Source: Colwellia sp. (GTDB taxonomy: Bacteria; Pseudomonadota; Gammaproteobacteria; Enterobacterales; Alteromonadaceae). From it: DNA of 64,000 nt. Location of the stretch: contig JAPHTO010000031.1 in assembly GCA_026196955.1 (NCBI GenBank), forward strand, positions 62,001-126,000, given 5' to 3'. A program made the position numbers and the translations under genes. Positions 2,198 to 21,664 of this stretch are shown one piece after another. The notes below the pieces were generated by a model that made no database searches, was not told where the DNA came from, and saw only the letters and a list, made by a program, of their open reading frames with translations. The stretch's first letter is position 1; each line of letters opens with the position of its first letter.

Positions 2198-2217
2198 TTT
2201 TGTACGACTATACAAAA
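2198..2217. promoter_or_regulatory. TetR operator-like palindrome, site 1 (DUF3604/tetR intergenic)
   Basis: TTTTGTA-CGACTA-TACAAAA has perfect 7-bp arms around a 6-bp centre. It lies between the divergent DUF3604 gene (start 2073) and tetR (start 2401), and matches palindromes at 2245, 3105, 18572, 18605 and 21647. Confidence 0.7.
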
Positions 2218-2244
2218 TTATTTTTTTGAAATAGCACTACTATG

Positions 2245-2262
2245 TTTGTACAAGCATACAAA
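2245..2262. promoter_or_regulatory. TetR operator-like palindrome, site 2 (DUF3604/tetR intergenic)
   Basis: TTTGTACAAGCATACAAA has arms TTTGTA/TACAAA. Its centre is 46 bp from that of site 1, on the tetR side. Two copies in one divergent control region fit autoregulation of tetR together with repression of the DUF3604 gene. Confidence 0.7.
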
Positions 2263-2400
2263 AATATTATATGTTATTGTGTGTTACAGAAAAGTCCCTA
2301 AAAAAACAGTCTACACTAGTTCTTAAATACACTTAGTTCTGTAAAATAAAAACTATCAATTTATCTTCTCACCGCCAACACTGATTTAAATAAAACTCAA

Positions 2401-3048
2401 ATGACAGTATCAAAATCGAACCAAGTAATAAAAAAACCTAAAACCAGTAAAAGTGAAATTACTCGCCAAAAAATTGTTGACGCTACCTTAGATCTTATTG
2501 CTGATGAGGGATTAGCAGGGCTATCCCATAGAAAAATTGCCGCTAGAGCTGAGGTAAAACTTTCATTGCTGAATTATTACTTTGGTACTTTAGATAACCT
2601 TATTGAGGCTGCATTTGATATTTTTTATGAAGCTGATCAAGAATATAACAAAGTAATGTACGCTAATCTAAATACAATACTCGGCTCACTTGATGAGCAA
2701 GACAAGAGTGAAATTCCATTAACGGTAAAAGAACAAGCTATAGAAGTTTTTTCTGAATATCTGCAAAAATATTATACTGATAGCCGCAAAGAAATTCGCA
2801 TCAAATTCCACTTCGTTTATTTTGTCGGCGACAATATAGGGTTGATGAACAAAGCAAACAAATTCAAAACTTTTTTATTATCCTTCATTGAATCATTTCT
2901 GACGCGACTCGGTGGAAAGCAGCCCAAAACGGATGCATTTTTATTACTCTGTGCGTTAAGAGAAATACAGTTTGCTTATGTACTTCGTGGAGAAAAAGTT
3001 GACAATGAATTGCTCATTGCAAGCATCAGACGATTAGTCATTCTGTAA
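2401..3048 (+). CDS. TetR/AcrR family transcriptional regulator, likely regulator of the island
   Basis: A 215-residue one-component repressor. Residues about 18-65 form the TetR DNA-binding domain (SEITRQKIVDATLDLIADEG, then a helix-turn-helix ending SLLNYYFGTLDNL). The rest is an all-helical ligand domain of usual length, with no recognisable subtype. The N-terminal 17 residues are Lys/Ser-rich and probably flexible. It is transcribed away from the DUF3604 gene at 2073. Palindromes lie on both sides of it (2198, 2245 and 3105), and copies precede other operons of the island, so it is the best candidate for a local regulon repressor. The inducer is unknown; by analogy with catabolic TetR proteins it may be the substrate or an intermediate. 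Confidence 0.9.
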   Translation: MTVSKSNQVIKKPKTSKSEITRQKIVDATLDLIADEGLAGLSHRKIAARAEVKLSLLNYYFGTLDNLIEAAFDIFYEADQEYNKVMYANLNTILGSLDEQDKSEIPLTVKEQAIEVFSEYLQKYYTDSRKEIRIKFHFVYFVGDNIGLMNKANKFKTFLLSFIESFLTRLGGKQPKTDAFLLLCALREIQFAYVLRGEKVDNELLIASIRRLVIL

Positions 3049-3104
3049 ACCTCCAAGACAAAAAAACAAAAAAAACTATTGCAATAGATTTTAACACACT
3101 GTAC

Positions 3105-3122
3105 TTTGTACGCTCGTACAAA
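3105..3122. promoter_or_regulatory. TetR operator-like palindrome, site 3 (upstream of sulfatase operon)
   Basis: TTTGTACGCTCGTACAAA has perfect 8-bp arms around a CT centre and is the best-formed copy in the window. It lies 57 bp after the tetR stop codon and 167 bp before the sulfatase start, so it most likely controls the operon beginning at 3289. Confidence 0.75.
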
Positions 3123-3288
3123 ACATTACAAGTTATTAATAAAAGCTACATTTAATTATAACAATCACACTTAAGTGATTGTTTATTAAAGCTTTTAACT
3201 TTAAGCATATTGCTGAGTATAACGACGTCTGTTTTGATTTGCCCCTAAGGTGCAAAATTATTCATTCATATAACTTGGAGATAGGCTT

Positions 3289-4776
3289 ATGCATGCTTTG
3301 GTACGCTTAACCATCATTTTTCTGCTCAGTTTTTTTTCTAGCCATTTATTAGCTCAATCAAAACCTAATGTAGTCTTAATTTTACTTGATAATACTGGCT
3401 GGGGAGATTTTGGTCCTTATGGTGGTGGTGAAATGAGAGGAGCCCCCTCTCCTAACATTAACCAACTTGCCAGTGAAGGTTTAACCTTAACTAATTTCAA
3501 TACCGAACCTCAATGTACACCAAGTCGTTCAGCTCTAATGACAGGCAGGTTTGCCGTACGTAGTGGTAACCAATCTGTGCCTTTAGGTGTACCTTATTAC
3601 GGACTTATTCCTTGGGAAGAAACCGTTGCTGAAAAACTTAAATCATCAGGTTACGCCACAGCAATGTTTGGTAAATGGCATTTAGGCAAAACTAAAGGAC
3701 GCTTCCCAACGGATCAAGGTTTTGACCAGTGGTATGGCATTCAAGACAGCTCTGGAGATGCTATGTGGTACTCACAAGAAATCAGCCAATTTTCAACTGC
3801 CCAAGATTTAAAAGATTCATTGCCCGACCATGAATATCCTTGGGTATTAACCGCAAAAGCTGGTGAAACACCTAAGCAAGTTAAAAAGTTTGATATGGAG
3901 CAAAAGCGACTTATTGATGGTGAGCTGACTCAAATGGCTGTAGATTATATTCATGAAAAATCTGATTCTGATGAGCCATTCTTTCTTTATGTACCGTTAA
4001 CCGCCATGCATTTCCCTACGATGCCTAGTGATGAATTTGCTGGCAAGTCAGGCCATGGTGTCTATACCGACATGCTAATGCAAACAGATCATTATGTTGG
4101 TCAAATCAGCAAAGCTCTTAGCGATACCGGACTTGATAAAGATACATTATTTATCTTTACCGCCGATAATGGACCAGAAGATCCTATCAATGGTAATAAT
4201 CAATATACTGGCTGGACTGGTCCATGGCGTGGAACTTACTTTACCGCCACTGAAGGTGGATTACGCACACCATTTATCGCTAAATGGGGTAATAACATAC
4301 CTGCAGGAAAACGCAGTAATGAAGTTGTGCATTTAGTTGATATTTTCTCAACTATCTTGGCCGTTGCAGATGTTGAAGCACCAAATGATAGACTTATCGA
4401 TGGTAAATCTATGGTGGGACTTTTTACCGGTAAAACGAAAAAATCACCTAGAGAAGGCTTCCCAATTTTTGTTGGCGATGAGCTCTACGCAGTAAAATGG
4501 CGTGATTGGAAAGCTCACTTTATCTTTCAAAAAAGTAAATTTAGTCCGAAAGAAATTTACTCTACCGCACCTAAAGTAATCAATCTCAAGCATGATCCAA
4601 AAGAACAATTTCAAGCTGCGGAGCCTTATAACGCATGGCTACAATACCCAGGAATAAAGCTTGTGGTTGATTACAAAATGTCTCAAGCACTACAACCTGA
4701 TGTACCTGTAGGCGCACCAGACTCTTATATTCCACCGCCACTAAAAAGCATGAAGCAATTAAGATCTAAACAATAG
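3289..4776 (+). CDS. Type I (formylglycine) sulfatase, exported
   Basis: A 495-residue arylsulfatase-family hydrolase that would cleave sulfate esters in the periplasm. An N-terminal signal peptide (about residues 1-23, ending LLAQS) precedes the alkaline-phosphatase-superfamily core starting PNVVLILLDN. The active-site signature CTPSR lies at residues 76-80; C76 would be oxidised to formylglycine by a maturase that is not encoded here. A TADNG motif near residue 290 supplies metal and sulfate ligands. A GGAG ribosome site precedes the ATG. The next gene, an alkylsulfatase of a different fold, is on the same strand 148 bp downstream, so two unrelated sulfatase classes are probably co-transcribed. 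Substrate specificity cannot be read from the sequence. Confidence 0.92.
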   Translation: MHALVRLTIIFLLSFFSSHLLAQSKPNVVLILLDNTGWGDFGPYGGGEMRGAPSPNINQLASEGLTLTNFNTEPQCTPSRSALMTGRFAVRSGNQSVPLGVPYYGLIPWEETVAEKLKSSGYATAMFGKWHLGKTKGRFPTDQGFDQWYGIQDSSGDAMWYSQEISQFSTAQDLKDSLPDHEYPWVLTAKAGETPKQVKKFDMEQKRLIDGELTQMAVDYIHEKSDSDEPFFLYVPLTAMHFPTMPSDEFAGKSGHGVYTDMLMQTDHYVGQISKALSDTGLDKDTLFIFTADNGPEDPINGNNQYTGWTGPWRGTYFTATEGGLRTPFIAKWGNNIPAGKRSNEVVHLVDIFSTILAVADVEAPNDRLIDGKSMVGLFTGKTKKSPREGFPIFVGDELYAVKWRDWKAHFIFQKSKFSPKEIYSTAPKVINLKHDPKEQFQAAEPYNAWLQYPGIKLVVDYKMSQALQPDVPVGAPDSYIPPPLKSMKQLRSKQ

Positions 4777-4924
4777 AACAACATTCGCTAAGTACTCAGA
4801 TCACCTCATAACTAAGTACTTTACATAACAAAAAATATAATTTAACTCAGTAGCCTTAGTTATCTGGAATCTGTTATTAGAAATTAGCAGTAGGCTGCTG
4901 CATTTTGTGAGTTGGAGAATACAA

Positions 4925-6718
4925 ATGAAACATAAAAATTGGTTAACTTCACTGAAAATAAAATCAGTCATTGTTTTAGTATCGGCAATGACAATATACA
5001 ACAGCGGCGCTCAAGCTGAATTTATCGCGAAAGAAGAGTTTAAATCGGTCATTAACACCGACCCTGTTATCAGTAAAAAGTTTGATTACATTTTTCAAGG
5101 ACATCAACCTGAAATTGTCAAAGTAGCTGAAGGTGTATATTTAGCAAAAAGTTTTGGCCAAGGCAACGCCGTATTAGTTGAAGGCGATGACAGCGCAGCC
5201 ATATTCGATGTAGGTGATAGCTATGAACACGGTAAAGCCATGCTAACAGAGCTAAGAAAACACACCAAAAAACCTATTAAAGCGGTGATCTATTCCCACT
5301 TTCATTTTGATCATATTTTTGGTGGCAAAGCGTGGATTGAAGCCGCAGATAAAGACGTACAAATAATCGCTCATGAATCCACGGCAAAATATTTAAATGA
5401 ACGTGTTTCTGCAATGGCACCACGTACCGACTGGGGTTTGGCCATGCAATTTGGTTTATTTCTTGATGAGTCTTGTGCTGTTGGTGAAGGCCCCTTATGT
5501 TCAGGTGTACATGGCATTCAATTTCCTCGCGTTGGTTCAACGAAAGGACATAAGCGTCACGTAATTTATCCTAATCGTACGTTTAGAGATCGCATGACGC
5601 TTGATCTAGGAAACCTGGAAGTTGAATTAATTCACTCCCCTAGTGAAACCCCTGATAACATTATAATGTGGATCCCAAAAAGAAAAACGATTCTTACGGG
5701 TGACTCATTAACACCAACATTACCGCCAATTTTTACCGCTCGTGGTCAACGTGTACGTGATCCTGAAGGCTACTTATCTTCGCTTGATTTAATGCGCTCA
5801 TTGAATCCTGAGCACGTGGTACCTAGTCACGGACCAGCTTTTTCTGGCCCGTTGGCACAAAATGTATTAATGACTTACCGTGACGCTGTTGCGTTTATGT
5901 ATCATCAAACTGTGAGAATGATCAATAAAGGTATGGGCCCAGAAGAAATTGCTAGCAAGTTGGTTCTGCCTCCCCAATTAGCCAATCACCCTTTATTAGG
6001 TACTTGGTATAATGATTTACAAACACAAGTTCGCGGTATTTATGGCTACCTAGTCGGTCACTACAATGATGTTGCCGAAATGCCCTTGTTAGCACCAGAA
6101 ACTGAAGATACAAACATGATTGCGCTGGCCGGTGGCCCAAAGCCTTATTTAAAGAAGCTACAAGCTGCTTATGATAACGGTGATTATACTTGGGTTGCTC
6201 GCGCTGCCAGTCACTTAATTAGAATAGAGCCAGAAAATCAGGCGGTTAAAGATCTTAAGGCGAGTGCATTAAGAGTATTAGCAGGCCAGTCAATCTCTGG
6301 ATCACATCGCCATTTTTACTTGCAGCATGCAGCAGCACTAGAAGGTTTGATTGATGTCACAATGAAAGCTAGATTCAGCGCTGATGATGTATCAACAGTA
6401 CCTGTGGATAGTTTAATCAAGCAAATTCCTTTTAGACTTGATGTAAGCACCGCAATGCAAAAGAAGCAGAGCTACACTGTTAACATTAATGATAGTAAGC
6501 AAACTTATGTTATTCAGCTGCGTAGTGGCATTGCTGAAGTCTTTAATGCTGACGAGAATTCAAAAGCGGATATCAGCATGGATAGCCAGTCTTTCCGCCT
6601 GTTTTATATCGGCTTGTTACCTCTCGATGAAGGCTTTGAGCAAGGCAAGATGAAAGGTGATAAGGCGCTAGCAGTAAGCTTCTTCTCTCATTTTGATTGG
6701 CCAAAAAACGCTAAATAA
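4925..6718 (+). CDS. Metallo-beta-lactamase-fold alkyl sulfatase (SdsA1/BDS1-like), exported
   Basis: A 597-residue type III sulfatase-family protein, which hydrolyses alkyl sulfate esters with a two-zinc site. The ATG at 4925 has a GGAG seven bases upstream; a GTG at 4907 is in frame but less likely. A signal peptide ends near GAQA (residue 31). The zinc motif HFHFDH is at residues 125-130, and further expected histidines lie in ELIHSPSETPDN and VPSHGPAF. Next come a helical dimerisation region and an SCP2-like C-terminal domain (about residues 480-595), the order seen in SdsA1. It is slightly shorter than typical members (about 650). It follows the type I sulfatase and ends before a strong terminator at 6739. 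Secondary-alkyl specificity (Pisa1-like) is possible. Confidence 0.9.
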   Translation: MKHKNWLTSLKIKSVIVLVSAMTIYNSGAQAEFIAKEEFKSVINTDPVISKKFDYIFQGHQPEIVKVAEGVYLAKSFGQGNAVLVEGDDSAAIFDVGDSYEHGKAMLTELRKHTKKPIKAVIYSHFHFDHIFGGKAWIEAADKDVQIIAHESTAKYLNERVSAMAPRTDWGLAMQFGLFLDESCAVGEGPLCSGVHGIQFPRVGSTKGHKRHVIYPNRTFRDRMTLDLGNLEVELIHSPSETPDNIIMWIPKRKTILTGDSLTPTLPPIFTARGQRVRDPEGYLSSLDLMRSLNPEHVVPSHGPAFSGPLAQNVLMTYRDAVAFMYHQTVRMINKGMGPEEIASKLVLPPQLANHPLLGTWYNDLQTQVRGIYGYLVGHYNDVAEMPLLAPETEDTNMIALAGGPKPYLKKLQAAYDNGDYTWVARAASHLIRIEPENQAVKDLKASALRVLAGQSISGSHRHFYLQHAAALEGLIDVTMKARFSADDVSTVPVDSLIKQIPFRLDVSTAMQKKQSYTVNINDSKQTYVIQLRSGIAEVFNADENSKADISMDSQSFRLFYIGLLPLDEGFEQGKMKGDKALAVSFFSHFDWPKNAK

Positions 6719-6738
6719 ATTATTAATATCTAATACAA

Positions 6739-6776: not shown

Positions 6777-6791
6777 CTAGCAGGGTAAACC

Positions 6792-8738
6792 ATGAATAAA
6801 CGATTGCGCTCTTCAATAATAGTTATTTGTCTTATTATGATCGTTGGTGGTTTATATGCCTATAACAAGATAAGAGGTAAGGTCGTTCGCTTAACCCCAG
6901 AAGTACAAAAAGAATTAAATTTAGCCGTTAGTAAAGAAAATGAATCGGCAATTACAAAACCTTCATTTCGTCCTCGAAATATTCAAGGTGCTAATCCACT
7001 TAAAAATGTCTATTTTGGTGATACCCATACCCATACATCCTTATCGTTCGATAGCTATTTATCGGGCACTCGTTTTTCTTTAGAAGACGCTTATAAATTT
7101 GCTCAAGGTGAGCAGGTACAGCTATTTTCAGGTGAGATTGCTCAATTATCAGAGCCGCTTGATTTTGTCGCAATAACAGACCATGCAGAAAGCTTTGGTC
7201 TTTTTGAGGGTTGTGCATCAAAAAACCTGAATGCTAAACAAAAAGATTTTTGTGGTCAGTTCGATGATCCTTCATTGAGCACGTTATTTAAACTTAAAAA
7301 AGAAGTCGTTAAACGTCCGCCTAAAGCCCCTGCTGATTTGTGCTTAGAGGATGGTAGCTTTTGCCGTGAGCATGGAAGAACAACTTGGTTAAAGACACAG
7401 CAAGCCGCAAAAGATGCTTATATTCCAGGCTTATTTACCACATTTTACTCTTTTGAATATTCACCTGTTTGGAAAGATTTAGGCTCAACCCATAGAAATG
7501 TTTATTTCCGTAATACTCAAGTGCCAGATAATGTTGTCTCAGCTTTTGATGCGAGTACTGCGATAGAACTATGGAAAATATTAGAGAGTACTTGTACACA
7601 AAATTGTGAATTTCTTACCATTCCGCATAATTTAAATCGTTATCAAGGCAAAGCTTACTCATCGGTAGATGAGGATGGTAAACCGTACACTAAAGAAGAT
7701 TGGCAAAGTAGACAGCGTAATGAACCGCTAGCTGAAATCTATCAGGCGAAAGGGAATTCTGAATGTGCTGTTGCTGTGAATACTGCAGATGAAGAATGTA
7801 ACTTTGAGCAACTTTTTCTTCCTTGTGAAGGTGATGAAAAAGGAAGGTGCGCTAGTGACGGCTCTTTTGCTAGAGATGGTTTGAAATTTGGACTCACTCT
7901 TGAAGATGAGTTGGGTTTTAATCCATTACGCTTTGGTTTTATTGGTAGTACAGATACTCATAATGCTACCCCTGGAGATACTGAAGAATGGGATTATCGT
8001 GGAAAGTTAGGGGTAAGAGATCAAACAGCTGTAAAACGCTTAGCAGAACCTAGTTTGATACCCGGTAATATCTTTGGGTATAACCCTGGAGGATTAGCCG
8101 CAATATGGGCACCGGAAAATACCCGAGAAGCTCTTTTTGATGCGATGAAGAGCAAAGAAACCTATGCAACAAGCGGAACCCGTATTCGTCTTCGTTTTTT
8201 TGGCAGCTGGACATTAAATAAGCAAGCACTTAATCAAGAAAACTTGATCAAGGATGCTTATGAAATCGGGGTACCTATGGGTGGAGTATTAAAAGCTAAT
8301 CGACAGCAGCAAAAGCCAAATTTTTTGGTGTGGGCTGTTAAAGATCCCATCGGCGCCAACTTAGACCGTATCCAAATGGTCAAAGGTTGGGTGGAAAATG
8401 GAAAAATTAAAGAAGAAGTGTTTGATATCGCCTGTTCAGATGGTGCTTCGCCGAGCAGTGAAACAGGTAAGTGCCCTGATAATGGTGCAAGAGTAAAACT
8501 CGATACTTGTGAGGTCAGTGCCAATGTTGGCGATAAAGAAATAAAAGTGTTATGGACCGATGAGAATTTTAAGGCTGAAGATTCATCATTTTATTATGTG
8601 CGAGTATTACAAAACCCTACTTGTCGCTGGTCTAGTTATGATGCTATTCGCTTAAATGTAGCCCCTCCTAAAGAAATATCAGCGGTATTAAAAGAGCGTG
8701 CATGGTCATCGCCCATTTGGTATTCGCCAAATAATTAA
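6792..8738 (+). CDS. DUF3604 family protein, cysteine-rich, membrane-anchored (paralogue 2)
   Basis: A 648-residue DUF3604 protein. An uncleaved-looking membrane segment (residues about 8-26) anchors it, with the bulk presumably periplasmic. The PHP-like motifs are THTHT (H79, H81), TDH (D130-H131), IPHN (H279) and TDTH (D388, H390). The C-terminus ends ERAWSSPIW. Unlike its two cysteine-free paralogues here it has 14 cysteines outside the anchor. Many are in inserted loops, for example near residues 138-155, 189-196 and 321-355, which suggests up to seven disulfides. AGGG precedes the ATG, and the start lies just after a terminator. A parvulin-like gene follows 38 bp later. The family is clear; the reaction is unknown. 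Confidence 0.85.
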   Translation: MNKRLRSSIIVICLIMIVGGLYAYNKIRGKVVRLTPEVQKELNLAVSKENESAITKPSFRPRNIQGANPLKNVYFGDTHTHTSLSFDSYLSGTRFSLEDAYKFAQGEQVQLFSGEIAQLSEPLDFVAITDHAESFGLFEGCASKNLNAKQKDFCGQFDDPSLSTLFKLKKEVVKRPPKAPADLCLEDGSFCREHGRTTWLKTQQAAKDAYIPGLFTTFYSFEYSPVWKDLGSTHRNVYFRNTQVPDNVVSAFDASTAIELWKILESTCTQNCEFLTIPHNLNRYQGKAYSSVDEDGKPYTKEDWQSRQRNEPLAEIYQAKGNSECAVAVNTADEECNFEQLFLPCEGDEKGRCASDGSFARDGLKFGLTLEDELGFNPLRFGFIGSTDTHNATPGDTEEWDYRGKLGVRDQTAVKRLAEPSLIPGNIFGYNPGGLAAIWAPENTREALFDAMKSKETYATSGTRIRLRFFGSWTLNKQALNQENLIKDAYEIGVPMGGVLKANRQQQKPNFLVWAVKDPIGANLDRIQMVKGWVENGKIKEEVFDIACSDGASPSSETGKCPDNGARVKLDTCEVSANVGDKEIKVLWTDENFKAEDSSFYYVRVLQNPTCRWSSYDAIRLNVAPPKEISAVLKERAWSSPIWYSPNN

Positions 8739-8776: not shown

Positions 8777-9583
8777 ATGTTTTTTAAAATATTGAAAGAA
8801 CCTATCTTTTGGTTTTTATTGCTTAGCATTAGCATTTTTACTATAGAAATAAAGTTAGGCTCTCAAGATAATTATATTAAAATTGAGCAGGCTAAAATTA
8901 AACAATTAGAAGAAAAGTGGGAGAAAGAACATGGCCGCTTGCCAACCGATAGTGAGCTGTTGGTTGTACTGGAGCCTGAGATAATAGATGAAATCTTATA
9001 TCGGGAAGCTAAATCGATTGGTCTGGAGTTGGATGACAATGTAATAAGAAGGCGGTTAATTGAAAAATACCGTTTTATGCTTAATCAATCTTCGTACCTT
9101 GATGATATCGATGAAGAAACACTAAAAGCCTATTATAAAAAAAATATGGACCAGTATCAGATTGCTGACAGTATCAGCTTTAAACATCACTTTTTTAGCA
9201 AGGTTAATCGAATCGATCCTCAAGGGAATGCAGCAACTGCGTATTTATCAAAGCAGTCTCAGCCTGAGAAAACGATCAAGGCTGATAGTTTCTTGGGGCC
9301 TTCTGTTATTGATAACGGAGGGCGGGATGTTATTGAACGTATTTTCGGTAACTCTTTTTTTGCAGACTTAAATAAGCTGAAATTAGAGCAGTGGAGCGAA
9401 CCGATACAGTCGGTATATGGTTGGCATCTGGTCTATATAACGGATAGAAAAAATTCAATGCAGTTGTCATATAAGCAGTCTAAAGAGAAAGTTATAAAAT
9501 CCATGCAAGTGCAAAAAAGACAAATCGATGAAAAATCCAGGCTATCAAAATTAATGACAAAATACAGTGTTGAATTTCAATAG
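8777..9583 (+). CDS. Membrane-anchored parvulin-like peptidyl-prolyl isomerase
   Basis: A 268-residue protein. One N-terminal membrane segment (about residues 11-28) is followed by a SurA/PpiC-type helical linker (REAKSIGLELDDNVIRRRLIEKYRFML). A parvulin-like domain (about residues 135-235) contains SFKHHFF, SFLGPS and the typical EPIQSVYGWHLVYI strand. A perfect AGGAGG lies six bases before the ATG. It lies in the same operon as the cysteine-rich DUF3604 gene, and a role as its dedicated folding factor is an inference supported by repeated pairing in this window. Isomerase activity is not certain, because many members of this membrane subfamily are divergent. Confidence 0.8.
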   Translation: MFFKILKEPIFWFLLLSISIFTIEIKLGSQDNYIKIEQAKIKQLEEKWEKEHGRLPTDSELLVVLEPEIIDEILYREAKSIGLELDDNVIRRRLIEKYRFMLNQSSYLDDIDEETLKAYYKKNMDQYQIADSISFKHHFFSKVNRIDPQGNAATAYLSKQSQPEKTIKADSFLGPSVIDNGGRDVIERIFGNSFFADLNKLKLEQWSEPIQSVYGWHLVYITDRKNSMQLSYKQSKEKVIKSMQVQKRQIDEKSRLSKLMTKYSVEFQ

Positions 9584-9617: not shown

Positions 9618-10271
9618 ATGTTTAAAAAAATACTGAGCAGAGCTACATTGTTTTATTTATCTGCTGTTGTTGTCGGTATTGTCGTATCGAGAGCGACTCT
9701 GATTCCCTTGGTCGATTATCTTGCTGTTTCTAGTGCCGAAGGTGAAATCCATAGTGGCCCTTGGGTAACAGGATTAAAGAAAGGTTCAGCCGATCAAAAC
9801 TTTATTCAGAAAGCCGTGATTGCGAAAATTGGCATTGGTAATTTGACCAAGGAAGAATCCCTCGTATGGAATACTTTTAAAGATTCGAGTGGAGAGCAAT
9901 TACATTCTAAATACGATTATGAAGTACGTTTTACAGGACCTATGCCTGTAGAGACTAGCGGGTTTTGGAGCCTGACTCTTTATAATAAGGAATATTTCTT
10001 AGCTGAGAATCCTATTGATCGTTTCTCTATTGGTTCAAAAGATCTTATAAGAACGAATTCCGATGATAGTTTCACTATTATTGTTTCTAGTAAAAAACCA
10101 GAGGATGTTACTAATTGGTTACCTTCACCAAAGAACGATTTCTTTGCGTTAAATATTCGAAATTATATTCCTAAAGCAGTCATGCTAAATGATCCTAAAT
10201 CTTTTGTAATGCCTGAAATTAGAAAAATTGACTCTGTTTTAGCTAGTGCACAATTGGAGACAGCTAAATGA
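9618..10271 (+). CDS. DUF1214-domain exported/membrane protein
   Basis: A 217-residue protein with one N-terminal hydrophobic segment (residues about 8-30). The DUF1214 pattern follows: SGPWVTGLKKGS, then GPMPVETSGFWSLTLYN and NPIDRFSIGS, ending with a short SWLPSP-like element (NWLPSPKNDFFALNIRNY). Its stop codon overlaps the start of the next gene by four bases (ATGA), so the two are translationally coupled. Many bacteria carry DUF1254 and DUF1214 as two halves of one protein; here they are separate adjacent genes. No enzymatic function is established for the domain, and none can be read here. It sits last-but-one in the sulfatase/DUF3604 operon. Confidence 0.75.
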   Translation: MFKKILSRATLFYLSAVVVGIVVSRATLIPLVDYLAVSSAEGEIHSGPWVTGLKKGSADQNFIQKAVIAKIGIGNLTKEESLVWNTFKDSSGEQLHSKYDYEVRFTGPMPVETSGFWSLTLYNKEYFLAENPIDRFSIGSKDLIRTNSDDSFTIIVSSKKPEDVTNWLPSPKNDFFALNIRNYIPKAVMLNDPKSFVMPEIRKIDSVLASAQLETAK

Positions 10272-14058: not shown

Positions 14059-14091
14059 GCGAATAAAATCAACTAATTTATACCTCATAAT

Positions 14092-15132
14092 TTAAGTCAC
14101 TAGCCAAAACCCTGCAATTCTCTCAATGAGCCAATACGCAGATATACCACCAATTAAATAAACAACACTATGCAGGCTCAAGCGTCTAGCTATTGAACCT
14201 ATATTGCTGTATTGACAAATAATGTCACTAGCCTTCACCAAAATCAAAATAACCGAAATAAAAATCAATTGCCCTATTTCAACACCAATATTAAAAGTGA
14301 GCAACGCTGTCGGAATCTCATTTTTCGGTAAGCCAGTCTCAGATAATGCACTAGCAAAACCTAAACCATGAAGCAAACCAAATAGAAAAGCAACTAACCA
14401 AGGTTTTCTTTCTGAAAGGCGCAACTCTCCAGTTCGTCTTTTCAAAATCTCTACCGCTAAAAATACAATAGACAATGCAATAATGGCTTCGACTACTGGA
14501 GTATAAATAGTTATATATCCTAACGAAGCTGCAGAAAGAGTTATTGAATGCGCTAACGTAAATGCGGTGATAGTTTTAAATAGCTTCCATTTTGAACTGA
14601 CTAAAATAATTAACGCTAAAACAAAAAGTAAATGATCTATGCCAACAAGAATATGATCTATGCCTAATACTAAATAAGTAGTGATTACGTCCCAAATAGA
14701 TGGGGAAATTGGTAATATTTTATTTGGATATTCAGGCGTTAATAACAGTGTTGCTACTTCGCCACTAATTGATTGAACACGAACCAAAACATCGGTTGCC
14801 GTGCTATTAAGCCCTTCAATAAATACTTCCTGACCACCAACCCCTCCTGCACAATTTGTTGTCCAGTTTGTTGAAAATGCATTGCCGGTAAAGCTTAAAT
14901 TAGGGGCATGACGATATTGACAATTTTCTGGTAACAATGCTGATATATTCATAGGCAAACCACCAACTTGAGGAACTTTCCAAGTTATGGTGTAAACATC
15001 ATCATACTGAGCTTTTATTTCTAAATAGCCCGGCTCTAGCGCATGTGAAAAACATGCTGAAAAAAATAAGGGGTTTAACCATAATGCTATGGAGAATAAT
15101 GTCGGCCAAAAAACCGCTGCGACCTTATTCAT
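14092..15132 (-). CDS. HupE/UreJ_2 family membrane protein
   Basis: A 346-residue protein. An N-terminal signal or first membrane helix precedes a beta-rich periplasmic domain of about 100 residues. The C-terminal half has about six to seven membrane helices bearing the family motifs: GIDHILVGIDHLLFVLAL, FTLAHSITL, FGLLHGLGFASAL and FNIGVEIGQL. The conserved His residues in these helices suggest metal handling; HupE relatives act in nickel or cobalt uptake, but the UreJ_2 branch is uncharacterised. It overlaps the upstream parvulin-like gene by eight bases (15125-15132), so the two are translationally coupled. A metal-supply role for the PHP-like DUF3604 proteins is conceivable but only inference. 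Confidence 0.8.
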   Translation of the reverse strand: MNKVAAVFWPTLFSIALWLNPLFFSACFSHALEPGYLEIKAQYDDVYTITWKVPQVGGLPMNISALLPENCQYRHAPNLSFTGNAFSTNWTTNCAGGVGGQEVFIEGLNSTATDVLVRVQSISGEVATLLLTPEYPNKILPISPSIWDVITTYLVLGIDHILVGIDHLLFVLALIILVSSKWKLFKTITAFTLAHSITLSAASLGYITIYTPVVEAIIALSIVFLAVEILKRRTGELRLSERKPWLVAFLFGLLHGLGFASALSETGLPKNEIPTALLTFNIGVEIGQLIFISVILILVKASDIICQYSNIGSIARRLSLHSVVYLIGGISAYWLIERIAGFWLVT

Positions 15133-15991
15133 TAGCTTTGTTTTCTATCAGAGGTTCAATTGTTACCTCATACTCTTGTAAGTAGCTTTTAAATTGACGT
15201 TCAGATAACTCTTTGGCTTGTTGATAACGCCAGTTTTTTAAAACTTGATTTCTAATTTGTCCAAGCTCAGGTAAATAAGCTGCTTTAATATGGTTAATAA
15301 AAACAAAATGTTCACCAAAGTTAGACCAGATAGGGCCTATCCATTTTCCGCTAGGTGCTGACATTATTTCGTCGGAAAATTGCTCGCCATAACTTTGTGC
15401 AATTTCTTGCTTGCTGCTTAAGGGGTTAATAAAAGGCAATACCGATGATTGATTAAGCGTTATTGCCTCATCTACTTGAGTGTAGGAAGTTAATTTGCGA
15501 CGAATCGAAGAACGTTGTTTTTCGCTGTTTTCATTTTTAAAAAAAATTTGGAAAAAAGCGATTTTTTTAACTTGAGTATAAGTTGCTTTATTTTTTTCTA
15601 AATATGCGACTAATTGTTCATCATTTGCTTCTATCATGTTGACTGATGATTGCACCATAAATTCCATTTTTTGTCTTAAACGTTGACGTATTACTGTGTC
15701 ATTTTGTTCAAGACCAAGTGATAAAGCTTCACGATAATAAACTTCTTCACGTAAGTATTCATTGACAAGGTTTGATAGTTCAAGCTCGTTTGGGAATCGT
15801 TTCCAGGTGTTTTTAAATTGGAGTTTTAGGCTTTGCTGTAATTGTTTACTAATAACAATTTTTTGATGAGTTTTAGATGAATTATTCGCTGACTTTTGAG
15901 GAACAAAAAGATCAAAAACAACAAATAAAACTACGCCAATAAATAAAAAATGTAGTAGAGGTTCGCGTATTATATTATTCCAATGAGCCAT
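15125..15991 (-). CDS. Membrane-anchored parvulin-like protein, possibly inactive
   Basis: A 288-residue relative of the protein at 8777: REPLLHFLFIGVVLFVVFDLF anchor, helical linker (REALSLGLEQNDTVIRQRLRQKMEFM), then a parvulin-like domain ending KWIGPIWSNFGEHFVFINHI. Where the paralogue has SFKHHFF, this protein reads AFFQIFF, so the first active-site-type histidine is missing and isomerase activity is doubtful. It overlaps the HupE-like gene by eight bases and follows the TonB receptor gene on the same strand, separated by a hairpin. A chaperone or scaffold role is more cautious than a catalytic one. Confidence 0.75.
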   Translation of the reverse strand: MAHWNNIIREPLLHFLFIGVVLFVVFDLFVPQKSANNSSKTHQKIVISKQLQQSLKLQFKNTWKRFPNELELSNLVNEYLREEVYYREALSLGLEQNDTVIRQRLRQKMEFMVQSSVNMIEANDEQLVAYLEKNKATYTQVKKIAFFQIFFKNENSEKQRSSIRRKLTSYTQVDEAITLNQSSVLPFINPLSSKQEIAQSYGEQFSDEIMSAPSGKWIGPIWSNFGEHFVFINHIKAAYLPELGQIRNQVLKNWRYQQAKELSERQFKSYLQEYEVTIEPLIENKANE

Positions 15992-16051
15992 GATTGTTTT
16001 TTTAAGAAAAGGATACTGGACATTATGCCTTCGCTAGCGCTAAATACAATA

Positions 16052-16083: not shown

Positions 16084-16101
16084 ATATTCGTTAGCTAACA
16101 A

Positions 16102-18438
16102 CTACTCAAAATTATAACTAAACTGTAATGAAACACTACGTCCTTCCTCTGCTCGTACACCATAAAAACCAGGACCAATTAAAGCCATATCAGTTGCAAA
16201 ACTCACCGTTGTTTCATCTGTTAGGTTTTTACCTAATATAGCGACTTGCCAAGTATTATCTGCGCTCATAAAAGCAACTCGTGCATTAAGTTTGGCGAAA
16301 GCATCTTGTTTCGTAAAGGGGTTTAAATCACCATTGGTATAATATTCAGACTTATATAACACATCTAGATTTGCTTTAAGTTCATAGGCGTCAGCAATTT
16401 CAGTGTAGTATTCTAAGCTTATGCTACCAGAAAGTTTTGGTGCAAGTGCATTGGTTTTTCCTGACATATCACAAGAGGTACCATTTTCTTCAATGTTGTC
16501 TGGTACCAGTGATACGCTGCTAAAGCATTTAGCGCCAGTATAGTCATCCCATTCAAAGTCTAAAAAGCCTAAACTACCATTAACTAGCCAGTTGTCCGCG
16601 AAAGCCCAACGACCATCAAGTTCAATCCCCATGGACGTCGCCTTAGCGCCATTTTCAACAAAGAAACCTGTGCTACCGTCATAAACTGAGGTTTGCAAAT
16701 CTTCAAATAGCATTGAGAATAAGGCGATATTTATATCCGCTAAACCGTCATCCAAGGTAAACTTGCTACCAAGCTCAAACGAGGTAACACTTTCGTCCTC
16801 AAACTCAAAATCATCTGGATTATTTGAACGAGAATCAAAACCGCCCGCTTTAGAGCCCGTTGAAACTGAAGCATAAATCATGGCATCGTCCATCTTATAT
16901 TTGATGTTTAATGCCGGTGTAAAGCTACCTTCATTTCTGGTATTTTGAATTTCATGGTCATAAATATTTTGCCCCGCTAAGACAACAGCAGAATAAATGG
17001 GCCCTGGCAAGCCATTAGGGAATGCTTGGGCAATAGCAGGCGCTTTTATTAGAGGCATCTCAACTACAGGTGTTCGCGTTGTCGGGTCTACTGCAAGCAA
17101 TTTACGGTAGCCGTCTTTGTCTTCATTTGAATATCGTAAACCTAACGTTGCTTCCCATTGTTCACTAAATTTATAGTCAAATTGAGCAAAAACAGCGCCA
17201 GTATCAGAATCAACATTAAATTTACGATCACCAATGATATTTAGCGGATAAACCATATAATCTTCAAGATACTCTAATTTGGTTGTTTGATAATAAACAC
17301 CCGCAATATAATTAAAAGCACCATCGTAGGCTGAAGTAATACGGAATTCTTGACTGAGTTGTTCAAATTTTTCATTACTTAACGGACGATAAATCAAGGG
17401 TAATGGACCATGATCTGCGTCACTAGAGCTATCTACTTCATAACTTTGCCAAGCCGTTATTGAAGTAAGCGTACTATCGCCCATATCGTATTCAACATTT
17501 AGGGTAAGATGATCAGCATCAAATGAAGCCTTTTCTTCTTCTCCTAGTGCAGGGATAGTTTTATGACTTTTATCATCAATAACATAATCTTTAATCACCT
17601 CTAGTACCGGAGCACCGCTAGCGGCAATGGCTGGTTCAACAAATGCTTGTGTTACACTACCGTCATATTCATCTTTGTCATGTTGAGCCGTTAACATCAC
17701 ATTGAAATCATCACTTGGTTGCCAGGCTAGCGTTAAGCGACCAAGAAAGGTTTCATGATCTGGCCCCTCTACATCAGTCACTGTATTAGTGACAAAGCCG
17801 CCACCATCAACATATTTTAAAGCTACCCTACCTTGAATATTATCGGCAAGAGAATTAGATACTGCGGTTTCAACCGTTGTTGTACCAAAGCTAAAGTCAT
17901 AATCGGTATTAATATAACCTTGAAAGTCTTCTGTTGGTTTTGCATTGGTTAAATTCAATGCACCCGCAGTAGTATTTTTACCAAATAAGGCACTTTGTGG
18001 GCCACGCAATACTTCAACTCGTTCTAAATCAAGAAAAACACTACGCATTAAATGACCACGACCACGGTATACGCCATCAACAAAAGTACCTACCGTTTGT
18101 TCAAAACCTTGATTTGGTCCTGAGCCAAGACCGCGCATCATTACATTAAACCCTTGTCCTGTCTGGTTTACTGAGAAGTTGGCGATATATGAAGACAATT
18201 CGGCAGAATCAGTAATATTGGCCTCTAGTAGCTTATCTTGATTGATGGCTGTCATAGAAATTGGTACTTCTTTAACGTTTTGTACACGTTTTTGTGCCGT
18301 TACCATAATGACTTCTAGTTTATCATCCATTGCTTGGTTTGCTTCATCAGCTGCATGTGCCAGTGTTGGCACACTCAAAGCTACGGATAGAGCCAAGCTA
18401 AGCTTGCTCATACTGTATTTTCTATTCGTTGTAAGCAT
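16102..18438 (-). CDS. TonB-dependent outer-membrane receptor
   Basis: A 778-residue receptor. The signal peptide ends LAHAADE (about residue 29), then a TonB-box-like stretch (EVIMVTAQKR). The plug domain (about residues 50-160) has VEVLRGPQSALFGKNTTAGALN. A 22-strand-type barrel follows, with the late TonB motif GFYGVRAEEGRSVSLQFSYNF and a terminal aromatic pair. AGGGG precedes the ATG. It is the only high-affinity import channel in the island and the probable entry route for the substrate. Two operator-like palindromes (18572 and 18605) lie 134-184 bp upstream, so it is likely in the TetR regulon. Sequence style resembles the large group of marine and sphingomonad receptors without a defined ligand. 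Confidence 0.93.
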   Translation of the reverse strand: MLTTNRKYSMSKLSLALSVALSVPTLAHAADEANQAMDDKLEVIMVTAQKRVQNVKEVPISMTAINQDKLLEANITDSAELSSYIANFSVNQTGQGFNVMMRGLGSGPNQGFEQTVGTFVDGVYRGRGHLMRSVFLDLERVEVLRGPQSALFGKNTTAGALNLTNAKPTEDFQGYINTDYDFSFGTTTVETAVSNSLADNIQGRVALKYVDGGGFVTNTVTDVEGPDHETFLGRLTLAWQPSDDFNVMLTAQHDKDEYDGSVTQAFVEPAIAASGAPVLEVIKDYVIDDKSHKTIPALGEEEKASFDADHLTLNVEYDMGDSTLTSITAWQSYEVDSSSDADHGPLPLIYRPLSNEKFEQLSQEFRITSAYDGAFNYIAGVYYQTTKLEYLEDYMVYPLNIIGDRKFNVDSDTGAVFAQFDYKFSEQWEATLGLRYSNEDKDGYRKLLAVDPTTRTPVVEMPLIKAPAIAQAFPNGLPGPIYSAVVLAGQNIYDHEIQNTRNEGSFTPALNIKYKMDDAMIYASVSTGSKAGGFDSRSNNPDDFEFEDESVTSFELGSKFTLDDGLADINIALFSMLFEDLQTSVYDGSTGFFVENGAKATSMGIELDGRWAFADNWLVNGSLGFLDFEWDDYTGAKCFSSVSLVPDNIEENGTSCDMSGKTNALAPKLSGSISLEYYTEIADAYELKANLDVLYKSEYYTNGDLNPFTKQDAFAKLNARVAFMSADNTWQVAILGKNLTDETTVSFATDMALIGPGFYGVRAEEGRSVSLQFSYNFE

Positions 18439-18571
18439 ATTATCCCCTCATAGTACTGTTAGAAGTTCAAGTGATTATTACCACCACTTATAATTCTCAT
18501 GTTATTTACTCTTTCTATTCCAAAGTTGTTTTTTCCTTTCCTTGGTTGTATTTATACTAACTCGCCCAACC

Positions 18572-18589
18572 TTTGAACGAGTGTACAAA
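18572..18589. promoter_or_regulatory. TetR operator-like palindrome, site 4 (imperfect), upstream of TonB receptor
   Basis: TTTGAACGAGTGTACAAA matches the TTTGTACG-N2-CGTACAAA pattern with two deviations. Its centre is 33 bp from that of the perfect copy at 18605. The paired sites lie in the 427-bp gap upstream of the receptor. The rest of that gap (18439-18865) shows no gene. Confidence 0.55.
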
Positions 18590-18604
18590 CAACACCAGAC
18601 TACT

Positions 18605-18622
18605 ATTGTACGACCGTACAAT
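18605..18622. promoter_or_regulatory. TetR operator-like palindrome, site 5, upstream of TonB receptor
   Basis: ATTGTACGACCGTACAAT has perfect 8-bp arms plus an outer A/T pair, and equals the 3105 site except at the outermost position and in the centre. It lies 167 bp before the receptor start codon, the same distance as site 3 from the sulfatase start. Confidence 0.75.
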
Positions 18623-18865
18623 CAATGTTTTTTTTAATAATTCGGTATTTTCAACAATAATTTTTGCCATTCTATTGCAAAATACAGTGATGAAAAGTAG
18701 AGCTATTCACTAGTATAAAGGACGGTTTCAGTAAATAATGGATACTAATCAACGGGTTAATATCATTGATAAAAAGACAGGTCATCCTTGACCTAAATTA
18801 GCAAGAGATCTCCCTCAGCTACTGGCTTGTATAGTTAGTACAGTTTAATAAACTTAAGGAAATAT

Positions 18866-20137
18866 CTAACTATGTAGAATTTCCCAGGTGTCAATAAGTT
18901 GACCGCGACGATAAGTTATTAGATCACCGAATTGCAAAAAGACAAATTCACTTTGGCTTGGTCGGAAGAAGACATGATCGTCAACATTTATATTAACCTT
19001 ATTTGAACCATTCACGATTTCTTGGTTAGTACTAGTGCCGAACAAACCATTACCTTGTAGACCTTTTGGGGATTCATAGTGTGCTAACCATTTTCCACCA
19101 TAAATAAAAAATGTTTGCTGCATGTTTTTATCCCACATCGGAAAAATATTTTGTGCGAACTCGGTCGCCGGAAGTTTTGTTCCTGACATTTTCTTTAATA
19201 CAGGTGTCGCAATATAGGCCGCAGGAGAATAATCAGCGAGAGTTGGGATATCAAAATCAGTGGGTTTCACTAAACAAGAGCCTGCAGAAAGTTCATTGGC
19301 AACAGTTTTTTCTTTATGTAAAGCAACACTTGGACTACCTGCGCCATTAAAGCAAAGCTTCTGCTTTTTATACTCTGGTGCTTGCAGATACAAGCGCTCA
19401 ATAAACCCTTGATATATGGCTTGTGATTGTTGGTACGCTTGTTCTTGCGACATAATAATACTAGGAATTTTAACCACATGGGGATCATATCCCATAAAGC
19501 CTGAAAAGCTTAAATATTGTGGGTTTTCTTGTATTAATTTCAGTAAAGAGTCAAGCTCTGCCGCTTCCTGCAAGCCACCTCGATGTAAACCAACGTCTAT
19601 TTCAATATTAACTTGCATTCTCACCTGCAAAGCTTTTGCTAACGCAAGATATTGTGATAAGCGCGCTTCGCTATCAATCAACCACTGTAATTGTAATTCA
19701 GCTTTGAAAGAGTCAGGATTATCATGGCTTTGATAAAATATCTCTGCCGCTTTCACTGGCATAGGTTTACCCATTAGCACATCGACATTTGGATATTCAC
19801 GGGCAATATGATTAAGAAATGGTTGATGAAAAACCATCAATTTATTGGTATTGGCTTTTTCCATAATATAACCAAGCAAACTAGGGCTTGGCAGTGACTT
19901 AGCAACAATGCGATAGTCTACAGCAGGGTTTAGCTGAGCCTTTAAAACCGCGATATTATTATCAAGTAAATCTAAATCAACCAGCATACTCGGAATAAAA
20001 TCACCACCTTCCTTTAAGCTATTATTAAGCACATTAAAATACTCATTATAAGGAGCACCATTATCGCTAGGCTTTAAAGATAGCGCTCCTGCGACACCAA
20101 CAGCTACGCCGGCAAGTATAAATTGACGTCTATTCAT
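18866..20137 (-). CDS. Tat-exported PLP enzyme, alanine racemase N-domain / D-threonine aldolase-like (DSD1 family)
   Basis: A 423-residue protein with a twin-arginine signal (NRRQFILAG at residues 2-10, hydrophobic run to about 21). A fold-type III PLP barrel contains YRIVAKSLPSPSLL, where K80 is the expected cofactor lysine. INIEIDVGLHRGG (about residues 180-190) is the matching strand. The C-terminal beta domain reads VFFRPSQSE where characterised D-serine dehydratases and D-threonine aldolases have a PxHxC/D metal motif, so the activity may differ. AGGAAA precedes the ATG. It lies 18 bp downstream of the FAD oxidase gene and shares its promoter. Tat export implies a folded, cofactor-loaded enzyme in the periplasm. 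The substrate is unknown; a D-amino acid or beta-hydroxy amino acid is a guess from the family. Confidence 0.8.
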   Translation of the reverse strand: MNRRQFILAGVAVGVAGALSLKPSDNGAPYNEYFNVLNNSLKEGGDFIPSMLVDLDLLDNNIAVLKAQLNPAVDYRIVAKSLPSPSLLGYIMEKANTNKLMVFHQPFLNHIAREYPNVDVLMGKPMPVKAAEIFYQSHDNPDSFKAELQLQWLIDSEARLSQYLALAKALQVRMQVNIEIDVGLHRGGLQEAAELDSLLKLIQENPQYLSFSGFMGYDPHVVKIPSIIMSQEQAYQQSQAIYQGFIERLYLQAPEYKKQKLCFNGAGSPSVALHKEKTVANELSAGSCLVKPTDFDIPTLADYSPAAYIATPVLKKMSGTKLPATEFAQNIFPMWDKNMQQTFFIYGGKWLAHYESPKGLQGNGLFGTSTNQEIVNGSNKVNINVDDHVFFRPSQSEFVFLQFGDLITYRRGQLIDTWEILHS

Positions 20138-20155
20138 TTTAATTTCCTGTAACTA

Positions 20156-21589
20156 CTAGCCTAAGCCTAGTACGGTATTGATATGGTCATTAGTGAAGAT
20201 GTTTTTCGGATCCATTTGTTGACGAACTTTTAAAAAGTCATCAAATTTAGGGTAACGGGCACGCTGTTCTTTCGCGGTAAGCGTATGTACTTTCCCCCAA
20301 TGTGGACGACCTTGATATTTCCAAAAAATGGGTTCGATAATAGCAAAATATTTCTTATAGTCTTTGTCATGAAAATTATGACAGCTAATAGCACAGCAAT
20401 CTTGCTGATAGAAAGGGCTTAACCAAATATCATCGGCTTGTATGTAACGAACTTCTATTGGAAAGATGACATCAATATTTTGCTTTTTAATGGTGGCAAG
20501 GATTTCACGTAAGCAGGCAACGCCATACTCTGCAGGCACCGAATACTCCATTTCGTTAAATTGAATGTCCCGTAAATTACCAAATACTTCATAGTTTTTA
20601 CCGGTACGCACTTCTTTTTCTACTCTACTCGCGCCTGCATTAACGATAAAGCTACGTAAAAATGGTACTGCATCAACCACTTTGGATAAGGTTCTAAAAG
20701 TTTCATAGGCATCACCATTATTAACTTTCTGCTCTAGTAGCTCAGTTTCTTTTACTTTATCTAAAGTAATACCCAAAATATAATCCGCATGCGGTAATGC
20801 ATAAAATTCAAAATGGCGATGTTGATCGCGCAGTTTTTCCATATTAGCCAAACCTTCTTCAAGGCCTAGCATCCAACTAGTTTCTTTTAAGTAATATTTA
20901 TCTTCAGCTTCAATACGAATATTTGTGACTGCGCCTAATGCCCCTATATTTGTGCGAGCGGCATTAAATAACTCGGTATTCTCATCGGCACTACAATTAA
21001 CCTCTTCTCCTAAACCATTAACCAAAGTCATTTGTTTAACTGTAGTCGACATCGAGCCAAAATTAATGCCCGTGCCATGAGTAGAAGTGGCAATTGCACC
21101 AGCAAAAGTTTGAGTATTTATATCTGGCATATTTTGCAAACTTAGACCATGTTGCCATAGTTCTGCACCCGCCGCCGCTAATACAGTATTTGCGGCAACA
21201 TCAAACTGCTTAGTTTTGACATCAACATTACTAATGCCATTAAAGTACGCTAGCGACATTAAAGACTCATTAGTAGGCACTAAAGCTGAAAAACTATGCC
21301 CAGAGCCAACTAAACGAATACGCTGTTTAGTTTGCTTAACCATAGCAATCAAGTCATCACTATTTTTCGGCACTAATAGTTCGTTATGTTCGCAAGACTG
21401 ATTGCCAGACCAATTACGCCAAGGTTGCACACGTTTGCCATCTTTACCAATTGCACCTTCAAGCTTGGGTAGTATAAATTCAGGTTTGTTGTCACTACAA
21501 GCTGATAACCCCAGTGTGCTGGTAGCCCCCACCGCCACTGCTGTTTTTAATAGTGAACGTCGATTCAGGTTAATTCGTTCAAACTGCAT
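20156..21589 (-). CDS. Tat-exported FAD-linked oxidase, D-arabinono-/L-gulono-1,4-lactone oxidase-like
   Basis: A 477-residue vanillyl-alcohol-oxidase-superfamily protein. From the ATG at 21589 (GGGAG upstream) the N-terminus has a twin-arginine signal (NLNRRSLLKTA) ending in a lipobox LSAC, so it may be a Tat-exported lipoprotein. An ATG at 21634 lacks a ribosome site. The FAD domain contains RLVGSGHSFSALVPT, whose His is the usual covalent FAD site in lactone oxidases, and STHGTGINFGSMS. The C-terminal ALO-type region ends with HWGKVHTL and DPKNIFTNDH. It begins the two-gene operon with the PLP enzyme, and an operator-like palindrome lies 58 bp upstream. A sugar lactone, alditol or related hydroxy compound is the expected substrate class; the exact one cannot be read. 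Confidence 0.85.
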   Translation of the reverse strand: MQFERINLNRRSLLKTAVAVGATSTLGLSACSDNKPEFILPKLEGAIGKDGKRVQPWRNWSGNQSCEHNELLVPKNSDDLIAMVKQTKQRIRLVGSGHSFSALVPTNESLMSLAYFNGISNVDVKTKQFDVAANTVLAAAGAELWQHGLSLQNMPDINTQTFAGAIATSTHGTGINFGSMSTTVKQMTLVNGLGEEVNCSADENTELFNAARTNIGALGAVTNIRIEAEDKYYLKETSWMLGLEEGLANMEKLRDQHRHFEFYALPHADYILGITLDKVKETELLEQKVNNGDAYETFRTLSKVVDAVPFLRSFIVNAGASRVEKEVRTGKNYEVFGNLRDIQFNEMEYSVPAEYGVACLREILATIKKQNIDVIFPIEVRYIQADDIWLSPFYQQDCCAISCHNFHDKDYKKYFAIIEPIFWKYQGRPHWGKVHTLTAKEQRARYPKFDDFLKVRQQMDPKNIFTNDHINTVLGLG

Positions 21590-21646
21590 AAATGAAATAC
21601 TCCCAAGTAGAAAAAGATAGTTTATATGTAACATACTATATACGGT

Positions 21647-21664
21647 TTCGTACGGTCGTACAAT
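21647..21664. promoter_or_regulatory. TetR operator-like palindrome, site 6, upstream of FAD oxidase operon
   Basis: TTCGTACGGTCGTACAAT keeps the TACG-GT-CGTA core with one outer-arm mismatch. It lies 58 bp before the oxidase start at 21589 and ties this operon to the island regulon. Confidence 0.7.

Follow-up and report, generated by a model that had tools for sequence, protein, structure and literature searches.

Six palindromes around a tetR gene of Colwellia sp. as probable operators of a local regulon of sulfatase, DUF3604, TonB receptor and ALO-alaR genes

A tetR gene, six palindromes and the genes around them

We analyzed a 64-kb stretch of the genome of Colwellia sp. (contig JAPHTO010000031.1, positions 62,001 to 126,000; hereafter the window, whose first nucleotide is position 1, with negative positions to its left). 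Its first 22 kb carry a tetR gene, six 18-bp palindromes and genes for two sulfatases, three DUF3604 proteins, a TonB-dependent receptor and a pair of enzymes related to flavin adenine dinucleotide (FAD) oxidoreductases (ALO) and to pyridoxal phosphate (PLP)-dependent alanine racemases (alaR), and we consider here whether the palindromes are operators of the local TetR. The features are as follows; unless another source is named, genes were assigned by Pfam and sites by motif scan.

-1672 to -698, minus: HupE/UreJ_2 gene outside the window (HupE_UreJ_2), presumed rest of the dufA operon
1 to 141, minus: end of a PpiC-type peptidyl-prolyl isomerase gene (whole gene -701 to 141; Rotamase_2), likewise presumed part of the dufA operon
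217 to 2118, minus: dufA, DUF3604 protein (PF12228, 789 bits); likely start near 2073, by eye
2199 to 2216: site 1, candidate operator, TTTGTACGACTATACAAA; TTAGCA-18-TATAGT abuts on the plus strand, towards tetR
2245 to 2262: site 2, candidate operator, TTTGTACAAGCATACAAA; TATAAT starts 9 bp before it on the minus strand (towards dufA), with a poor -35
2401 to 3048, plus: tetR, putative local repressor (TetR_N); recognition helix, residues 54-61, LSLLNYYF
3105 to 3122: site 3, candidate operator, exact palindrome ahead of the sulfatase operon; a weak TTGCAA-17-TACTTT overlaps
3289 to 4776, plus: formylglycine-type sulfatase (CTPSR; Pfam and relatives among Protein Data Bank (PDB) sequences)
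4907 to 6718, plus: SdsA-like alkyl sulfatase of the metallo-β-lactamase fold, HFHFDH present
6792 to 8738, plus: dufB, DUF3604 protein
8777 to 9583, plus: PpiC-type peptidyl-prolyl isomerase
9618 to 10271, plus: DUF1214 protein
10268 to 10831, plus: DUF1254 protein
11098 to 13029, plus: dufC, DUF3604 protein; PHP-like fold predicted (Pfam, structure model)
13069 to 13998, plus: Phenol_MetA_deg family protein, which we take to be outer-membrane channel-like
14092 to 15132, minus: HupE/UreJ_2 membrane protein
15125 to 15991, minus: PpiC-type peptidyl-prolyl isomerase
16102 to 18438, minus: TonB-dependent receptor (tonB), 52-54% identical to the receptor beside related tetR genes
18572 to 18589: site 4, candidate operator, TTTGAACGAGTGTACAAA; its centre is 33 bp from that of site 5
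18605 to 18622: site 5, candidate operator, ATTGTACGACCGTACAAT, upstream of tonB
18778 to 18795, minus: terminator-like stem downstream of alaR, separating ALO-alaR from the tonB unit (consensus scan only)
18866 to 20137, minus: alaR-like PLP fold-III enzyme (Ala_racemase_N), twin-arginine motif read from the sequence
20156 to 21634, minus: ALO-like FAD oxidoreductase (TIGR01679 above cut-off), twin-arginine motif and LSAC lipobox; likely start 21589, from the sequence
21647 to 21664: site 6, candidate operator, TTCGTACGGTCGTACAAT; about 73 bp before the likely ALO start

At site 6, TATAGT starts 24 bp after the first base of the palindrome, and TTGTAC within it is a possible -35 element. For the ALO protein, Pfam TAT_signal scored 19.8 bits, below its cut-off of 22.7, and an Rfam scan of positions 1-25000 gave no match at the gathering score. 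The gene set proposed in an earlier sequence-only reading of this DNA was present, but it proved slightly larger than stated, as the dufA strand runs left into the PpiC and HupE genes.

The palindromes are intergenic and confined to the island

Scanning the window for TTTGTACGNNCGTACAAA at up to three mismatches returned six palindromes of the form TTTGTACG-N2-CGTACAAA, whereas 100 shuffles of the window gave a mean of 0.43 matches and a maximum of 3. Site 3 matched without mismatch and each of the other five with two; all six lie between open reading frames (ORFs), inside 19.5 kb. These are exactly the six that the sequence-only reading had listed by their centres, and its placement of them, exclusively in intergenic DNA, at tetR and before the sulfatase operon, the TonB receptor and the FAD oxidase operon, agrees with the coordinates. 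That reading had also pointed to the 167 bp that separate sites 3 and 5 from the start codons that they precede. The distance is correct, but the two 167-nt leaders reached a local alignment score of 16 against a shuffle mean of 17.4, and because they show no similarity we regard the shared spacing as a coincidence.

In the whole genome (3,971,822 bp in 167 contigs; assembly 95% complete), these six were the only matches at up to two mismatches. Frequent occurrence of the motif away from the island had been named beforehand as a finding that would speak against the proposal, and it was not observed. At exactly three mismatches seven more were found, all on other contigs and all within ORFs (3 kb around each was read), and the three genomic copies of the core GTACGNNCGTAC are all at this island. 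As a control we used the motif read backwards, which gave one match at up to two mismatches in this genome, compared to six for the motif. Across 196 genomes of the family, 108 had at least one match at this threshold (range 0 to 6 per genome), and a single other genome (G098) had six, spread over six different contigs. The palindrome observation is real and specific.

Related TetR proteins have related palindromes at orthologous promoters

The product of 2401-3048 contains a TetR_N domain (PF00440; 32.5 bits against a cut-off of 24). Its AF2 model, built on a 28-row alignment, had a predicted local distance difference test (pLDDT) score of 88.8 and nine helices, with the recognition helix placed at residues 54-61. 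The best structural match was 3kkd (PA3699; Z 21.3, root mean square deviation (rmsd) 2.6 over 198 residues, 27% identity); DNA-bound DesT (3lsr) matched with Z 16.8, and solved TetR-family chains overall with Z 16-21. None of the known TetR equivalogs (PsrA, BetI, CecR, KstR, RutR and others) exceeded its NCBIfam cut-off, the best being PsrA with 39.4 bits against 300. At the sequence level, candidate palindromic operators lie at its own or neighboring promoters, as is expected of the TetR family.

When the 196 family genomes were searched with the TetR protein, four strong relatives were found (G062, G125, G096 and G086; 130-143 bits, the next at ≤56 bits), in Bowmanella pacifica, B. yangjiangensis, B. 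denitrificans and Lacimicrobium alkaliphilum, with 37-39% identity to the window TetR in one alignment (A5) and 38-40% in another (A1). In all four, tetR stands between tonB and the ALO-alaR pair, whose products are orthologous to those of the window (TonB 52-54%, AlaR 47-49% identity), and none of the four genomes had a DUF3604 match. A profile of the TetR (A1) at E ≤ 1e-25 found 6 of 394 genomes of the order, including the window's own (361 bits; the other five 91-95 bits), and in 369 genomes of the class only the window's own; a search for related loci in the genome_contigs collection with the single TetR protein as query found no relative.

The four relatives have palindromes of the type TTGGACG-N2-CGTCCAA, from which the window form is changed by one symmetric base. 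One site, TTTGGACG-N2-CGTCCAA(A/T), precedes the ALO unit, and a second, of the type TTGGACGAGTGTCCAA (ATAGGACGAGTGTCCAAT in Lacimicrobium), precedes tonB. At up to one mismatch the genomes contain 2, 2, 2 and 1 such sites, all at the tetR locus, the second site of the fourth genome being more degenerate than this. Promoter scoring around each site gave the same picture at all eight of the relatives' sites: the first base of a TTGACA lies exactly 27 bp ahead of the palindrome, whose initial one to three bases are shared with a -10-like hexamer (TTAAAT, TGTAAT or TAAATT; spacer 16-18). These promoters face either tonB or ALO-alaR. A repressor that blocks polymerase needs its operator to lie across the start region, as is predicted here.

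According to the passages of PMC7102968 on TetR, the residues whose side chains contact bases are Arg28, Gln38, Pro39, Thr40, Tyr42 and Trp43. If residue 28 of TetR is paired with R44, their counterparts in the window TetR would be R44, L54, S55, L56, N58 and Y59, where N58, in the predicted recognition helix, pairs with Tyr42. Only N58 differs among these six positions in the four relatives, where it is serine, and each half-site of their operator has a single base changed from the window consensus, G in place of T at ±5 from the centre.

A second group of loci has a different TetR. In L064, L065 and L069 (Cognaticolwellia mytili, Thalassomonas sp. RHCl1 and a Colwellia metagenome-assembled genome), AlaR is 68-70% and ALO 70-74% identical to the window proteins, and divergently adjacent to ALO lies a tetR whose product has about 20% overall identity to the window TetR. 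The tetR-ALO intergenic regions contain the palindromes ACTGTACGATAGTACAGT, CTTGTACCATCGTACAGG and ACTGTACCATAGTACAGT with a TGTAC-N4-GTACA core, placed 65 to 71 bp before ALO, compared to 73 bp for the matching point of site 6 in the window. This group has T58, with the window-type T kept at ±5. The concerted change of the operator base (T to G) and of residue 58 (N to S) is suggestive of covariation, although two groups do not amount to proof. The link to a local repressor, which the sequence-only reading had proposed, is thus strengthened by related TetRs that have a co-changed operator at orthologous genes and repressor geometry at eight of eight promoters, and comparison supports the local TetR as the regulator.

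A local TetR repressor is the favored explanation

We consider it probable, at roughly 85%, that the palindromes are operators of the TetR encoded by 2401-3048, which would repress five units together until a ligand releases it. From gene order and direction, the presumed transcription units are dufA-ppiC-hupE, tetR, the operon from the sulfatase to the outer-membrane channel, tonB-ppiC-hupE and ALO-alaR. The ligand-free TetR dimer would sit on or beside their start regions and block RNA polymerase, and all units would be induced together once it is released by a small molecule, probably the substrate after import or one of its degradation products. In this way the cell would control how a sulfated and probably lipophilic organic substrate is taken up through the TonB receptor and processed in the periplasm, by desulfation (two sulfatases), PHP-type hydrolysis (DUF3604) and the exported FAD dehydrogenase and PLP enzyme pair. 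Judged by the comparison above, the core regulon appears to be tonB with ALO-alaR, to which the sulfatase, DUF3604, PpiC and HupE operons would be an addition, found with this TetR only here.

Several observations weigh against this explanation. The extended regulon with sulfatase and DUF3604 genes was seen in one genome only, and another TetR of the same genome (contig C13), 34% identical over residues 2-125, could in principle bind the sites. At the window's own sites the -35/-10 matches are weak (sites 3 to 6 weak or placed otherwise), and promoter scans of the window regions showed no excess over shuffles (2 against 6.3 expected; 14 against 13.3). Genome-wide, the backwards control gave 34 matches at up to three mismatches compared to 13 for the motif, and the backwards core GTACGNNCGTAC occurred five times; since the control is not rarer, clustering and intergenic placement are informative and the raw three-mismatch counts are not. 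Backwards controls of the Bowmanella/Lacimicrobium form likewise gave 4, 3, 3 and 2 matches compared to 2, 2, 2 and 1. The eight sites of the relatives are not eight independent cases, because three of the four genomes belong to one genus, and the covariation is based on just two groups, with the helix positions K53 and L57, outside the six contact positions, differing as well. Finally, L064, L065 and L069 combine this core with a TetR that is only about 20% identical, so that resemblance between sites does not reveal which protein binds them.

It is unlikely, in our estimate, that the local TetR controls only tetR, tonB and ALO-alaR, with sites 1-3 acting on tetR or left over from rearrangement. 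The core does recur without DUF3604 genes, sets of DUF3604, PpiC and HupE genes recur with neither this tetR nor the operator, and the promoter scan called no promoter-like site at site 3; site 3 is nevertheless the sole exact palindrome, and it lies ahead of the sulfatase operon, beyond the end of tetR, where a remnant would have been expected to decay. We assign a still smaller chance to the palindromes being operators of another TetR-family protein encoded elsewhere, with the local tetR a mere neighbor. The shared core beside a different TetR subfamily in L064, L065 and L069, as well as the second genomic TetR, would fit such an arrangement; against it, in five genomes this tetR stands beside both the operators and the core genes, changes in the operator go with changes in the recognition helix, and the different TetR of the L064 group itself divergently adjoins ALO. 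An origin of the palindromes by chance or as structural repeats (terminators or a repeat element) is, in our reading, ruled out by conservation and placement: the genome is AT-rich, G098 also has six matches at up to two mismatches and backwards controls are not rarer in raw counts, but only 0.43 matches per window are expected from shuffles, G098's six are scattered, terminator calling picked up none of the six palindromes and the site is also present at orthologous promoters of other genera.

A sulfated, lipophilic compound as a possible substrate of the genes under the candidate operators

The closest solved relatives of the formylglycine sulfatase are an arylsulfatase, a steryl-sulfatase and arylsulfatase A. 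The alkyl sulfatase exceeded the cut-offs for Alkyl_sulf_dimr and Lactamase_B, with Alkyl_sulf_C at 25.1 against a cut-off of 27, and matched PSdsA with E 1.2e-47. Since an SdsA-like sulfatase stands here with an arylsulfatase/steryl-sulfatase-like enzyme, our guess for the substrate class is sulfated and lipophilic. No glycoside hydrolase or lyase family, as a polysaccharide utilization locus would have, was found among 15 scanned island proteins. Four paralogous TonB receptors (33-36% identical) were examined, three of which (in G000, G039 and G129) adjoin genes for AMP-binding ligases (L177:7928-10405 on G000:C113, L178 and L180), hinting at uptake of fatty-acid-like substrates.

The DUF3604 model (pLDDT 76.7; low-confidence stretches 1-49, 316-339, 394-413 and 417-426) had PHP proteins as its top two Foldseek entries, both loose matches: 3e38 (E 5.7e-7, TMt 0.49, TMq 0.29, rmsd 11.0) and 7ug9 (E 6.9e-4). 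H58, H60, D109, H110, H268, D380 and H382 are invariant or nearly so, and we presume that these histidines and aspartates belong to PHP motifs; against PDB sequences there was no significant match. DUF3604 is rare in the order: at E ≤ 1e-50 it was found in 9 of 394 genomes, one of them that of the window, and among nine stretches around DUF3604 genes seven had PpiC and HupE, one PpiC only and one neither. The same genome has a second DUF3604 locus (L169, G000:C16:20001-36000), with a PpiC-type gene nearby and no operator.

Two loci appear to link the sulfatase/DUF3604 part with the tonB/ALO core. In a genome of another family (G244, L176:647-6642), the gene for a TonB receptor 47% identical to that of the window precedes an alkyl sulfatase-like gene and a fusion of DUF1254 with DUF1214; its 15-kb stretch contained no tetR, ALO or palindrome, with only 646 bp of contig preceding tonB. 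In Colwellia psychrerythraea ND2E (L063:8601-9983), a 460-aa ORF that lies between PpiC and HupE genes on one side and alaR on the other joins roughly the first third of DUF3604 (profile positions 3-219) to the later part of ALO (46-257), which may reflect a deletion, a fusion scar or faulty assembly. The earlier proposal of one uptake-and-processing pathway is supported more weakly than that of a local repressor: these two loci link its parts, while the core and the DUF3604 sets also recur separately.

The ALO-alaR pair is more widespread than the regulon

An alignment search for AlaR-like proteins found 187 related stretches, of which the best 80 were fetched; 65 of these had a recognizable ALO and AlaR. 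Within 900 bp upstream of ALO, TGNAC-N4-GTNCA occurred at 7 of the 65 loci, exactly the seven with a tetR BLAST hit, four of them being the Bowmanella/Lacimicrobium genomes; all 1.39 Mb fetched contained 13 such sites. ALO lies directly upstream of AlaR at 61 of the 65 loci, and record titles among the best 80 of 187 name Gammaproteobacteria, Alphaproteobacteria and Bacteroidota, among others. The distribution of the pair extends far beyond that of the regulon.

For a census of neighbors, 55 of the 80 loci qualified, with 154 ORFs, 144 of which were scanned (at least L140 is unrepresented); the 25 others were seven Tenacibaculum near-duplicates, L063 and 17 with ALO or alaR unrecognized or out of order. 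Twelve of the 144 were TetR_N proteins, and TetR neighbors of other kinds were without this palindrome. In 29 of the 144, c-type cytochrome families were found, which suggests that ALO may be a periplasmic FAD dehydrogenase. A small CxxCH cytochrome c gene lies just upstream of ALO-alaR in many genomes (L066, L070, L071, L072 and others). The window island had no small CxxCH frame of 80 to 169 codons, and none of at least 50 codons just upstream of ALO.

The island occupies a variable gap

The presumably regulated block measures 23 kb and extends 1.7 kb to the left of the window. Left of the HupE gene are flagellar-type genes, one flgT-like (by eye), and right of the island are a CHASE kinase and then tkt and gap (both by eye). 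In three loci of the same genus (L155, L156 and L157), the stretch from the flgT-like gene to the kinase-tkt-gap block measures about 3.6 to 8.5 kb and holds other genes, which differ between species; in L154, L158, L159 and L160 the kinase-tkt block was not found within the 18-19 kb read. Because its contents differ across the genus, we regard the interval from -2250 to 24564 as a variable gap that the island occupies.

Discussion

The proposed regulon consists largely of genes without known function, namely three DUF3604 genes, DUF1254/DUF1214 and the ALO/AlaR-like pair. Co-induction, if true, would tie them to one substrate, and TetR would be the sensor with which to find it. Even a substrate class for DUF3604 would be news, as this family is named in 1 of 5.39 million open-access papers. 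The paired change of an operator base and a helix residue would moreover be a natural experiment in TetR specificity, and the prediction is concrete and cheap to test, with six duplexes and one protein. A bolder picture, which we hold only tentatively and think rather doubtful, is a marine, repressor-controlled route for uptake and periplasmic breakdown of alkyl or sterol sulfates, with an exported FAD lipoprotein and PLP enzyme pair and DUF3604 as a PHP-type hydrolase, in which the ALO promoter kept its operator core while its TetR was replaced. In other bacteria the exported FAD lipoprotein is often found with a c-type cytochrome.

Among known systems, Colwellia echini has polysaccharide utilization clusters that are also marine and for which PMC6952198 contains sulfatase and TonB-dependent terms; the window island differs in having no glycoside hydrolase or lyase family, with an SdsA-like alkyl sulfatase and FAD/PLP enzymes instead. 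The regulons of FadP, PsrA, LiuQ, RutR and FabR have been reconstructed by comparative genomics, including taxon-specific motif changes (passages of PMC5343134). They share with the present case the method, a TetR-family regulator, a palindromic motif and a metabolic regulon, but comprise fatty acid, branched-chain amino acid and pyrimidine genes, and those passages do not name this gene set; nor did any title or abstract opening that searches of the open-access literature listed describe it. Local regulons of the TetR/tetO type, with DesT, MtrR and PA2196 as DNA-bound structures, have in common with this locus an N-terminal helix-turn-helix, an all-helical ligand domain, a palindromic operator, its placement over promoter elements (in the related loci) and adjacent targets. 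They differ in that we found no description of this operator sequence, target set or ligand, and 3kkd (PA3699) is listed as a putative regulator. As a local TetR regulon the system is ordinary in kind and new in content, with mostly uncharacterized targets.

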